From Rhodospirillales bacterium (GTDB taxonomy: Bacteria; Pseudomonadota; Alphaproteobacteria; Kiloniellales; JAKSDN01): a stretch of DNA of 45,033 nt. The position numbers and the translations under genes are program-made. The first letter of the stretch is position 1. The number at the start of each line of letters is the position of its first letter. A model generated the notes under the pieces. It searched no databases, was not told the DNA's origin, and was given only the letters and a program-made list of their open reading frames with translations. Positions 41,666 through 45,033 of this stretch are shown piece by piece. The stretch spans positions 1 through 45,033 of the forward strand of contig JAOUCL010000007.1 of the NCBI GenBank assembly GCA_029859805.1. The letters run 5' to 3'.

Positions 41666-42315
41666 GTGAGAAGGACCCGGTGGTTTCGCAGGAAATCGAG
41701 CAGCGGGAGCAATGGCAGACCCAGTATCGTGAAATAATCGCCTTCGACGCGGCCGAACAGCTGTGCGCCCGGACCCTCCAGCTGGTAGGCCCCGACCGAG
41801 TCGAGAGCGTGCTTGCCGACGACAGCCAGATAGGCGTCTATGAAATCGTCGCTGAGCGGTCGCATGGTCAGGCGCGCATGGTCTCCGTGGTGCCAGAGGC
41901 AGGCACCGTCGCGTACCACGCAGGCGGACGAAATGAGCCTGTGCATTCGTCCGCTCAAGGCCTGCAACTGCTCCGCGGCTTGGTCCAAGGTCTCGGGTTT
42001 GTCGAACCAAGCGCCGTCGCACTCGAGCATCTGATCGGCACCGATGACGAGAGCACCGGGAAACCGCCGCGCAATTCGTTGGGCCTTCAGCTCGGCCAGG
42101 GTCTCCGCAACCTGGGCCGCGTCCGCAGCCTCGCTCGCCAGTGCAGCCTTGACACTGTGTTCGTCTATCTCCGCAGCCCTGCAGGTGACCGAGACCCCGG
42201 CATTTGCCAAAAGCCTGCGGCGGGACGGACTGGACGATGCCAATACGACGTCCGGTGCTGTTGGACCGGGTGTGCCAATCTGCCCCATGTGTGAAACCTT
42301 CGTCATGAGCTTCAT
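41662..42315 (-). CDS. maf: Maf-family nucleotide pyrophosphatase
   Basis: Nucleoside triphosphate pyrophosphatase that clears modified or non-canonical nucleotides. Motifs: LASSSPSRRRLL (25-36), GADQML, FDKPET, and GAYQLEGPGAQLF near the C-terminus. It is 217 residues from ATG 42315, which overlaps the ppsR stop (ATGA). ATG 42288, with GAAGG 8 nt upstream, is a good alternative that removes nine residues. Confidence 0.93.
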   Translation of the reverse strand: MKLMTKVSHMGQIGTPGPTAPDVVLASSSPSRRRLLANAGVSVTCRAAEIDEHSVKAALASEAADAAQVAETLAELKAQRIARRFPGALVIGADQMLECDGAWFDKPETLDQAAEQLQALSGRMHRLISSACVVRDGACLWHHGDHARLTMRPLSDDFIDAYLAVVGKHALDSVGAYQLEGPGAQLFGRVEGDYFTILGLPLLPLLDFLRNHRVLLT

Positions 42316-43127
42316 GCCTCGGTATGTCGCGTGTAGTAGGTCATGATCGTGGCAGCGGTTTCCTCTATCGAGCGCCGCGTCACGTCGATCACGGGCCACT
42401 CGTATTTGCCGCACAGGCGGCGCGCCATGGCGACCTCCTCGCGCACGCTCTCGAGGTCCGTGTAGTCGGTTTCCTCGCCGCCCTGCGAGATCATGCGGAG
42501 CCGATTCCGACGCACCTGCACCAAGCGTGCCGGTTCCTTGGTAAGCCCCACGACCAGCGGCCGGGTGAGATTGAGCAGTTCGTCGGGCAGCGGGCATCCG
42601 GGGACGATCGGTACGTTCGCCGCTTTTATGCCCCTGTTGGCCAGATAGATGCAGGTTGGGGTCTTGGATGTGCGGGAGACCCCGACCAATACGACATCGG
42701 CCTGGTTCAACTCCGCGCCGCATTGGCCGTCGTCATGCGTAAGGACGTAGTTCATCGCGTCGATTCGATGGTAATACTCGGCATCGAGGGCATGCTGCAG
42801 GCCCGGCCGGCCTCGGATTTCCACTTGGTAATAAGCAGCGAGCGTGTGAATTACGGGATCCAGAACGGGAACGCAGGGCACGCCCAGTTTTCGACATCCC
42901 TCGACCAGGACGGTTCGAAGCTCATCGTTTACGATGGTGAAGAGGACAGCCCCGGGATTGGCTTCGATCCCCTGCAGAACCTTAATCATCTGACCCTTGG
43001 TCCGAATCAGGGTCCATGCATGCTCGATCGGCTCTACGCCCGCGAACTGAACCAGGCAAGCACGGGCCACCGAATTCACGGTCTCGCCCGTGGCGTCGGA
43101 AACCAAGTGCATGTGATGGGCGGTCAT
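42312..43127 (-). CDS. ppsR: PEP synthetase regulatory protein family (DUF299, RP001 homologue)
   Basis: A bifunctional kinase/pyrophosphorylase family that in E. coli regulates PEP synthetase and in other organisms PPDK. It has 271 residues; N-terminal HLVSDATGETV and the P-loop GVSRTSKTPT (149-158). ATG 43127 is preferred to the longer frame to 43196. It flanks the replication origin in Caulobacter and Rickettsia (where it is called RP001), opposite hemE, exactly as here. Confidence 0.95.
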   Translation of the reverse strand: MTAHHMHLVSDATGETVNSVARACLVQFAGVEPIEHAWTLIRTKGQMIKVLQGIEANPGAVLFTIVNDELRTVLVEGCRKLGVPCVPVLDPVIHTLAAYYQVEIRGRPGLQHALDAEYYHRIDAMNYVLTHDDGQCGAELNQADVVLVGVSRTSKTPTCIYLANRGIKAANVPIVPGCPLPDELLNLTRPLVVGLTKEPARLVQVRRNRLRMISQGGEETDYTDLESVREEVAMARRLCGKYEWPVIDVTRRSIEETAATIMTYYTRHTEA

Positions 43128-43526
43128 CTCGTTCCATCCCAGTCCCAAATTAGACGAATGCCGGGGATAAGTGCCGCTTTTCGCTGGACTCGACAAAATC
43201 CCTGCACCCTCACCTCACAAACCTCCGCAAACTTAGCGCCGCATCGAACCAACCAGAAAAACCCGGGGGAAACCTGGAGCAGCGATATGACGAAGCAAGG
43301 TTATCCTCGTTATCCATCGGTTGCGAGCACAGTGCAAGCCGGCGCGGTTCTTGGCATTCCTGCCATATGTGCTAAGACCCTTACACAGGGGAACACGCAG
43401 CACGCAACCATCCGGAGAGCTTGCGGAAAAGCCCGTGGATCTCTTGCTAATCCTCGCGATTCACAGGGATCAACTACAACTACAACCAACCTTAATAATA
43501 AGATGTTTGAATTGAAAGGAACCGAG
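43128..43526. other. Probable chromosomal replication origin (oriC) between ppsR and hemE
   Basis: A 399-bp gene-free interval between ppsR and hemE, the location of oriC in Caulobacter and Rickettsia. DnaA-box-like 9-mers: TTATCCTCG (43301-43309) directly followed by TTATCCATC (43310-43318); TTATCCCCG on the minus strand (43162-43170); and AGATCCACG on the minus strand (43434-43442), near the Caulobacter G-box TGATCCACA. The right end (about 43465-43505) is AT-richer and could unwind. None matches TTATCCACA perfectly, and no CtrA site pair (TTAA-N7-TTAA) was noticed. The promoters of both flanking genes must also lie here. Confidence 0.65.
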
Positions 43527-44612
43527 GTGAACCAGTCGCCGCCAATTTCAGACCCTGTGTCGCCTATAGAATCCGGCACGGAACCGAAGCTGCTCTTGCG
43601 GGCGCTTCGTGGGGAGGTCTGTGCACGACCCCCGATCTGGTTGATGCGGCAGGCGGGTCGATATCTTCCGGAATACCGGGCGACACGGAAGAAGGCGCCG
43701 AGCTTTCTGGACTTCTGCTATACCCCGGAGCTTGCCGTCCAAGTGACGCTGCAGCCGATTCGGCGCTTCGGCTTCGATGCTGCGATTCTGTTTTCCGACA
43801 TCATGGTCGTACCTCATGCACTCGGCCAAAAGGTCTGGTTCGAGGAAGGCCGCGGCCCTCGTCTGGACCCTGTTGGCAGCTCGGGGGAGCTTGGGCGCTT
43901 ATCCATGGACTCCCTCAACGAGAACCTCGCCCCCGTCTATGAGACGGTCCGCGGGATCCGGTCGGAGTTGGGCCCTGAAACAGCTCTCATCGGGTTTGCC
44001 GGGGCGCCCTGGACCGTCGCGAGCTATATGGTCGAAGGCGGAGGCACAAGGGAGTTCGCCAAGGTCAAGACCTGGGCCTATGGGGATCCTGAAGGGTTCC
44101 AAAAGCTGATCGACTTGTTGGTGGATGCCACCACGCTGTATCTCGAATCGCAGATTGCTGCTGGCGTCGAGGTTCTGCAACTTTTTGATTCCTGGGCCGG
44201 TGCCCTGACAGCCAAGGGTATGCGGCAGTGGTGTCTCGATCCCAACGCCGAAATCATCCGGCGAATCAAGGTGAACTACCCAGGCATACCGATCATTCTG
44301 TTTCCGCGCGGCGCAGGGCTCATGTACCGGGATATCGCGGCCGAGTCCGGTGCCGATGCGGTTGCCGTCGACAGCACTGTGCCGCCGGCTTGGGTACGGG
44401 ACGAGCTTCAAAGCCGAGTTGCCGTCCAGGGCAATCTGGACCCGATTCTCCTGGTCGCCGGGGGTGAGGCACTGCGACAATCGGCCACCGAGATCCTCGA
44501 GACCTTGGGCGGCGGGCCCTTCGTGTTCAATTTGGGCAGCGGGATCGTACCTGAAGCAGATCCGGAACACGTCGGCGAACTGGTGGAGCTTGTTCAAGGC
44601 TGGTCGGCCTGA
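43527..44612 (+). CDS. hemE: Uroporphyrinogen decarboxylase
   Basis: Decarboxylates the four acetate side chains of uroporphyrinogen III to give coproporphyrinogen III. GTG 43527 is chosen since AAAGGA (43515-43520) lies 6 nt upstream; ATG 43503 is an alternative. It has 361 residues; the N-terminal hallmark PPIWLMRQAGRYLPEYR (Arg41, Arg45), the AILFSDIMVVPHALG block with the catalytic Asp, and FPRGAG. It runs away from the origin region, and hemH follows after 39 bp. Confidence 0.95.
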   Translation: MNQSPPISDPVSPIESGTEPKLLLRALRGEVCARPPIWLMRQAGRYLPEYRATRKKAPSFLDFCYTPELAVQVTLQPIRRFGFDAAILFSDIMVVPHALGQKVWFEEGRGPRLDPVGSSGELGRLSMDSLNENLAPVYETVRGIRSELGPETALIGFAGAPWTVASYMVEGGGTREFAKVKTWAYGDPEGFQKLIDLLVDATTLYLESQIAAGVEVLQLFDSWAGALTAKGMRQWCLDPNAEIIRRIKVNYPGIPIILFPRGAGLMYRDIAAESGADAVAVDSTVPPAWVRDELQSRVAVQGNLDPILLVAGGEALRQSATEILETLGGGPFVFNLGSGIVPEADPEHVGELVELVQGWSA

Positions 44613-44651: not shown

Positions 44652-45033
44652 ATGAGCAAGACTGCCGTTGTGCTGTTCAATCTGGGAGGACCGGACCGGC
44701 CCGAGGCGGTCCAGCCGTTCCTTTTCAACCTCTTCAATGATCCCGCGATCATTGGGGCGCCAAAGCCGATTCGCTGGCTGCTGGCCAAGTTCATTTCATC
44801 GCGGCGTGCGCCGGTTGCCCGGGAGATCTATACCCATCTGGGCGGCAACTCTCCGCTGTTGGCCAATACACAAGCCCAGGCGCAGGCTCTCGAGGCGGCG
44901 TTGGGGGATCTTGGGGAGGTCCGGGTGTTCATTGCAATGCGCTATTGGCACCCGTTGACGGAGGAAACGGTGTCCGCGGTTGCGGCCTTCAACCCGAAGC
45001 AGGTCGTCCTGTTGCCGCTGTATCCGCAGTTCT
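44652..45033 (+). CDS. hemH: Ferrochelatase, 5' part (continues beyond window)
   Basis: Inserts Fe(II) into protoporphyrin IX, the last step of heme synthesis. The first 127 residues are visible: [42 protein letters not shown] and [10 protein letters not shown], all ferrochelatase landmarks. ATG 44652 is the likely start. The gene is cut by the window end, so catalytic His/Glu residues cannot be checked. It forms a heme-synthesis pair with hemE. Confidence 0.94.

Follow-up and report, generated by a model that had tools for sequence, protein, structure and literature searches.

The interval between the divergent genes ppsR and hemE (positions 43128-43526) raises the question of whether the chromosome of this Kiloniellales bacterium begins its replication here and, if so, how the DNA would be opened. 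An earlier note had read the interval as a probable oriC on the strength of its flanking genes and a handful of box-like 9-mers; the GC skew of relatives and the conservation of the 9-mers now support that reading, and the interval is very probably the chromosomal origin. Considering all the evidence, we are confident that the whole is best explained as a hemE/ppsR-type alphaproteobacterial oriC, including a proposed site of DnaA-mediated opening at 43448-43485. The assignment itself is ordinary, since an origin of this known kind is to be expected. Its computed support consists of the coincidence or near coincidence of the locus with the skew minimum in relatives, conserved DnaA boxes, a trinucleotide periodicity, the uniqueness of one sequence element within the genome, and covariation between the middle base of the trinucleotides and residue 187 of DnaA.

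The window, that is the whole stretch of 45,033 nucleotides analysed here, is a single contig (C383) from a draft genome that totals 5.36 Mb over 550 contigs. Around the locus the genes run, from left to right, secB, dnaQ, coaE, aroE, maf, ppsR, the interval, hemE and hemH. The last of these is truncated, and the contig stops within it (44652-45033), some 1.5 kb beyond the right side of the origin. Family-model matches (NF003742 and TIGR01464; Table 1) bear out the boundary genes given by the earlier note, ppsR (RP001) and hemE, the latter having an alternative in-frame ATG start at 43503. The ppsR gene is 97% identical to sequences from two metagenome-assembled genomes of an uncultured Kiloniellales bacterium (L018 and L019). 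It was present at all 55 relative loci fetched (56/56 of the loci examined overall), and hemE at 54 of the 56, the two remaining fetched stretches stopping short of it. A record titled Flavobacteriaceae bacterium SAT25 (L020) also has ppsR and hemE side by side in divergent orientation, with identities of 55% and 46%; this title is probably wrong.

Table 1. Coordinates of the origin features and flanking genes in the window; fractions are genera retaining the named base.
Feature	Position	Strand	Details
ppsR (RP001 family, PEP synthase regulator), left flank	42312..43127	-	ATG at 43127; NF003742 331 bits, cut-off 225
Left DnaA box, TTATCCCCG	43162..43170	-	2 mismatches; core kept: G43165 21/21, G43166 20/21, A43167 20/21, A43169 and A43170 19/21
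DnaA box, first of abutting tandem, TTATCCTCG	43301..43309	+	T43301 19/21, T43304 21/21, C43306 20/21
DnaA box, second of abutting tandem, TTATCCATC	43310..43318	+	T43310 18/21, T43313 19/21, C43315 20/21; identical 9-bp register
Weak conserved CACA site, CCTTACACA	43379..43387	+	4 mismatches; C43386 21/21, A43385 17/21
DnaA box, TTTTCCGCA	43422..43430	-	2 mismatches
Weak box, AGATCCACG	43434..43442	-	3 mismatches; partly conserved
R1 element-model match	43446..43508	+	E 7.4e-9
Box adjoining the presumed unwinding site, TAATCCTCG	43448..43456	+	3 mismatches; C43455 21/21, T43451 19/21, C43453 18/21; within model R1
Abutting second box, CGATTCACA	43457..43465	+	3 mismatches; C43464 19/21, C43462 18/21
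Spacer between boxes and trios, GGGAT	43466..43470	+	5 nt
Five CNA trinucleotides, candidate variant DnaA-trios	43471..43485	+	CAA CTA CAA CTA CAA; opposite strand 3'-GTT GAT GTT GAT GTT-5'
AT-rich edge, presumed site of first unwinding	43489..43520		GC 0.25
hemE (uroporphyrinogen decarboxylase), right flank	43527..44612	+	TIGR01464 408 bits; GTG start at 43527, AAAGGA upstream

Since the genome is in 550 contigs its own skew could not be followed, and the cumulative GC skew that the earlier note had proposed as a check was read in relatives only. The most informative is a genome of the same order held in a single contig of 4.18 Mb (G020). Sampled at 20 places, its skew is negative at 2.52-3.59 Mb and 0-0.23 Mb and positive at 0.42-2.33 Mb; 18 of the samples fit opposite signs on the two sides, and the others, at 3.78 and 3.99 Mb, are about zero (+0.003). 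Read continuously over 230 kb (210-440 kb), the cumulative G-C minimum falls at 373,925, which is 82 bp past the end of the R1 element described below (373,843) and 20 bp beyond the codon at which the hemE alignment starts (373,905; query residue 20), with the start of ppsR near 373,403. A member of another family (G044) gives negative samples at 0-560 kb, positive samples at 672-2,900 kb and negative samples again from 3,060 kb, with hemE at 692 kb; the sign change between 560 and 672 kb places the turn 20-130 kb left of hemE, and the skew over the 20 kb immediately left of hemE is already positive (+0.017) without a local minimum there, a small discord with the oriC reading. The samples from a third genome (G010) were weak and noisy and were given no weight. 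Two congeners of our bacterium, represented by contigs of 69.6 kb (G001) and 27.1 kb (G002), have skew minima inside the interval, which on such short contigs could be due in part to divergent transcription.

Judged on its own, the interval contains DnaA boxes in numbers only modestly above chance. Four sites lie within two mismatches of TTATCCACA, where dinucleotide shuffles lead us to expect 0.86, and 0.8% of 1000 such shuffles reached at least four; no other 400-bp segment of the 45 kb, scanned in steps of 50, has as many. The weight of the argument rests on comparison with relatives. Among 22 genera, each represented once, boxes with at most one mismatch total 30, where 200 shuffles gave a mean of 1.7 and never more than 6, and boxes with at most two mismatches total 120 against 22.9. 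When 21 genera are aligned, the left box, the abutting tandem and the right-hand pair all hold their positions, which is the conservation that the earlier note had made a test of its reading. Its individual observations have also survived: the tandem 9-mers it placed at 43301-43318 abut exactly, the two further boxes it saw on the opposite strand are those at 43162 and 43422, and the right edge is indeed AT-richer, in an interval with a GC content of 0.52 compared with 0.67 for the window. Whether the conserved CACA site at 43379 is a DnaA box is doubtful.

The earlier note also remarked that a perfect consensus box was missing and that the consensus might differ in this lineage. No exact or one-mismatch TTATCCACA occurs within the 45-kb window, and the suggestion of a differing consensus is borne out by the forms TTATCCCC and TTATCC[C/A]C of this lineage. 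The rest of the genome has 13 exact copies of TTATCCACA, compared with 6 in a backwards-sequence control. Two of these stand on contig C511 (L011, G000:C511) at 145-176, in direct orientation with starts 23 bp apart, close to one end of the contig and ahead of an ORF at 268-927; R1 does not match there. Our search likewise agrees that the interval lacks a CtrA pair (TTAA-N7-TTAA), an arrangement present in one of 50 intervals from the order. As CtrA sites are missing from several alphaproteobacterial species (PMC1914354), they are not defining for origins of the hemE/ppsR type. The IHF consensus (WATCAN5WTR or WATCAAN4TTR) is absent from the interval too, and WATCAN5WTR occurs in 9/50 intervals from the order. 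No parS site was found in the window, which spans mainly the ppsR side, and each of the two congeners has two exact sites on the hemE side, at 10.3 and 12.4 kb. An Rfam scan of the window returned nothing at gathering scores.

The most strongly conserved block, on which the earlier note had not remarked, lies at the hemE end, where a tandem of weak boxes is followed by a short spacer, a run of CNA trinucleotides and the AT-rich edge; we consider this element (43448-43520) likely to be the one at which the DNA opens. The boxes in the window are weak; the second box position reads TTATCCACA in members of the class such as L161, L164 and L178. We described the block by a sequence-only model, R1, built from 31 members of the order with the window's own genus left out. 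Across the 5.36 Mb genome R1 has one match at E <= 10, and this is the match in the interval. In 56 of the 57 order genomes with a match (25/26 of those held out from training) the best one falls in the range 0-400 bp upstream of hemE; in the single exception (G021) hemE sits at a contig edge, with the match close to a different edge. Among 143 genomes of the class the best match reached E <= 1e-3 in 49, of which 38 also gave a ppsR match; in 34 of these 38 (32/36 without two training genomes) the R1 match stands on the strand opposite ppsR and 256-532 bp upstream of it, and in four the best match is elsewhere. The class-wide search also returned many weak matches in AT-rich genomes. Where 27 loci outside the order were picked by ppsR alone, the element was present in 20 and absent from seven.

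To judge by its sequence, the CNA repeat has the geometry of DnaA-trios without their conserved middle adenine. On the strand that would be captured, the window's element repeats every three bases beginning with G. Across 22 genera, the plus strand has C at the first trio position in 99 of 110 cases and A at the third in 89/110, while the middle base is A in 64, T in 25, C in 20 and G in one. The resulting pattern score is 188/220 against 94.6 (sd 7.0) in shuffles, and for 20 further class members 143/200 against 80.7 (sd 6.6). The published search rule (PMC8287927) asks for at least three consecutive NAN trios beside co-oriented boxes no more than 3 bp apart, the better of which has at most two mismatches, whereas the boxes in the window abut but have three mismatches each. 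Three consecutive NAN trios occur nowhere in the window's interval, and at the trio position they occur in none of the 22 genera and in one of the 20 class members. Fits to the classical rule can be found elsewhere in the interval in 13 of 22 genera (at least one each); these were given no weight because their places are scattered and no chance level was computed. The authors of PMC8287927 themselves suspected that deviant trios without a middle adenine exist.

A possible reason for the deviation lies in the initiator. According to PMC10721633, the B. subtilis structure has the first trio base, G, in contact with Arg202 and Glu228 and the middle base in contact with Asn187, which reads an amine on that base; C may replace A there, and G and T do so less well. 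At these three positions (187, 202 and 228) the DnaA of our bacterium has Tyr, Lys and Glu. Tyr187 is found in all 30 members of the order that were compared, and among 50 genomes of the class, three of them from the order, position 187 is Tyr in 41, Phe in 3, Asn in 3 and His, Val or Ser in one each, with Lys202 and Glu228 in all 50. Outside the class the residue is Asn in T. maritima and Gln in A. aeolicus. The first genomes found with Asn187 were G148, G104 and G193, and the trios of G148 read CTA CTA CTT. In the Asn187 DnaAs of one order (L250, L253, L256, L308-L339) two residues preceding 187 have changed as well, KFMY having become SFVN or TFVN, so that the difference in the base-capture loop is not confined to a single position. 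In one class member (G191; L260, L294) DnaA shares only 31% identity with that of our bacterium and has Ser at 187, the Lys and Glu being kept, and R1 has no match upstream of ppsR there.

To compare residue and repeat, we sampled the orders of the three Asn187 genomes, using 30 of 33 genomes (G205, G212 and G218 were left out) and excluding G222 for its partial ppsR match. The trios were placed by a locator that scores the boxes together with position 1 of every trio and ignores the middle base; 84 of 88 genomes were placed with confidence, the locator score falling below 12 in three with Tyr (G177, G154, G146) and in G191. An unbroken run of three or more trios whose middle base is A or C is present in all 28 genomes with Asn187 (5 genera) and in none of the 56 others (39 genera); with the four low-scoring genomes restored the contrast is 28/28 against 1/60, the exception being G191. 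With middle A alone, a run of three is found in 23/28 Asn genomes against 0/56. Counted per genus on the captured strand, the middle base is A in 20 cases, G in 3 and T in 2 among Asn genera, and T in 100, A in 50, G in 42 and C in 3 among the rest. We infer from these sequences that the opening element is a DnaA-trio of variant form, and that the way it is read has changed together with residue 187. The fuller proposal, to which we give about an even chance, is that most Alphaproteobacteria read the trio by its outer bases (3'-G-N-T-5') and not by a middle adenine, because Tyr or another non-amide residue replaces Asn187, and that the two lineages with Asn have returned to 3'-G-A-N-5', with middle A or C, so that origin and initiator would have changed specificity together.

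This proposal has to be set against descent. The hypothesis arose from G148 and then from G193 and G104, and the 25 Asn genomes added later are their close relatives. On a single-gene DnaA tree, built without the residue-187 column and read for its topology alone, the Asn tips fall in two places, an order of five genera (f55) and a single genus (f99), which makes two independent events at best, and 20 of the 28 Asn genomes belong to one genus. It could be, then, that the trios are ordinary and that the pattern reflects the shared ancestry of two clades and not functional coupling, a serious possibility although we lean against it. The larger clade, f55, sits within a set of Tyr lineages, and G198, a member of the same order, carries Tyr and lacks any run of three; moreover, residue 187 is the very one that touches the middle base in the B. 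subtilis structure (PMC10721633). Alternatively, the interval might be the origin while the CNA repeat is incidental, a product of the hemE leader, of low complexity or of coding sequence, with unwinding left to plain AT-richness. A reading frame is open across the repeat in the window, and the repeat does not conform to the published NAN rule; in many relatives, however, the open frames (with lengths near 360 aa) stop shortly upstream of hemE, the periodicity is kept in 22 genera and 20 class members at a fixed place after the boxes, and the middle base tracks residue 187. We therefore think an incidental repeat unlikely. A further alternative would make the interval nothing but a divergent ppsR/hemE promoter region, its boxes serving as transcriptional control sites, with oriC at some other place, such as the neighbourhood of dnaA on contig C63 or the pair of exact boxes on C511. 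The exact boxes found elsewhere in the genome and never in the window speak for it, but the chromosome-scale skew turns at or near the locus in G020 and G044, the R1 element is found in this genome once only and in the interval, C63 has no listed exact box, and in G020 dnaA is about 123 kb from the skew minimum. We regard an origin elsewhere as very improbable.

If the interval is the origin, the order of events might be as follows, binding, filament, unwinding and direction being read from the arrangement of the sites. DnaA would bind at one box on the left, at the abutting tandem in the centre and at the weaker sites towards the right. A DnaA-ATP filament would start at the two abutting, co-oriented boxes at 43448-43465, cross the GC-rich spacer and proceed onto the strand opposite 43471-43485, with one base triplet for each protomer; the captured triplet would here be 3'-G-N-T-5' and not 3'-G-A-T-5'. 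The AT-rich stretch before hemE would then open, leading to helicase loading.

As far as our literature searches show, the covariation of residue 187 with the trio is new: they covered mostly non-subscription articles without supplementary files, and none of these dealt with trios in Alphaproteobacteria that lack a middle adenine or with residue 187 varying with trio sequence. The analysis locates the probable origin of an uncultured order and resolves its parts, and R1 offers a one-hit oriC marker for fragmentary alphaproteobacterial genomes. The natural covariation also provides a ready test of the base-reading mechanism of Asn187, in origins that the published rule would miss; if it is true, an origin and initiator that changed together would be nature's parallel to the base-capture mutants of B. 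subtilis.

The locus has its closest likeness in three known systems. With the hemE-flanked origin of the Caulobacter type it shares the hemE and RP001/ppsR flanks, the DnaA boxes and an AT-rich stretch beside hemE, but it is without a CtrA pair, an IHF consensus or a near-perfect DnaA box, its boxes having drifted to forms like TTATCCCC. The predicted origins of Wolbachia and its relatives (PMC1914354) resemble it in the hemE boundary, in boxes more conserved than their surroundings and in the scarcity of CtrA sites in several species, whereas their other boundary gene encodes a COG1253 protein and they have IHF sites, which the interval here lacks. The basal unwinding system (BUS) of B. subtilis, with boxes #6/#7 and DnaA-trios (PMC8287927 and PMC10721633), is alike in its two co-oriented boxes, which in the window are weak candidates, its short GC-rich spacer, the G-first three-base repeat on the captured strand and the AT-rich DNA beyond, and the window's DnaA retains both Glu228 and a basic residue (Lys) at 202. 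The two differ at the centre of the trio, where T, A or G stands here and a conserved A in B. subtilis, and at residue 187, which is Tyr here and Asn there.
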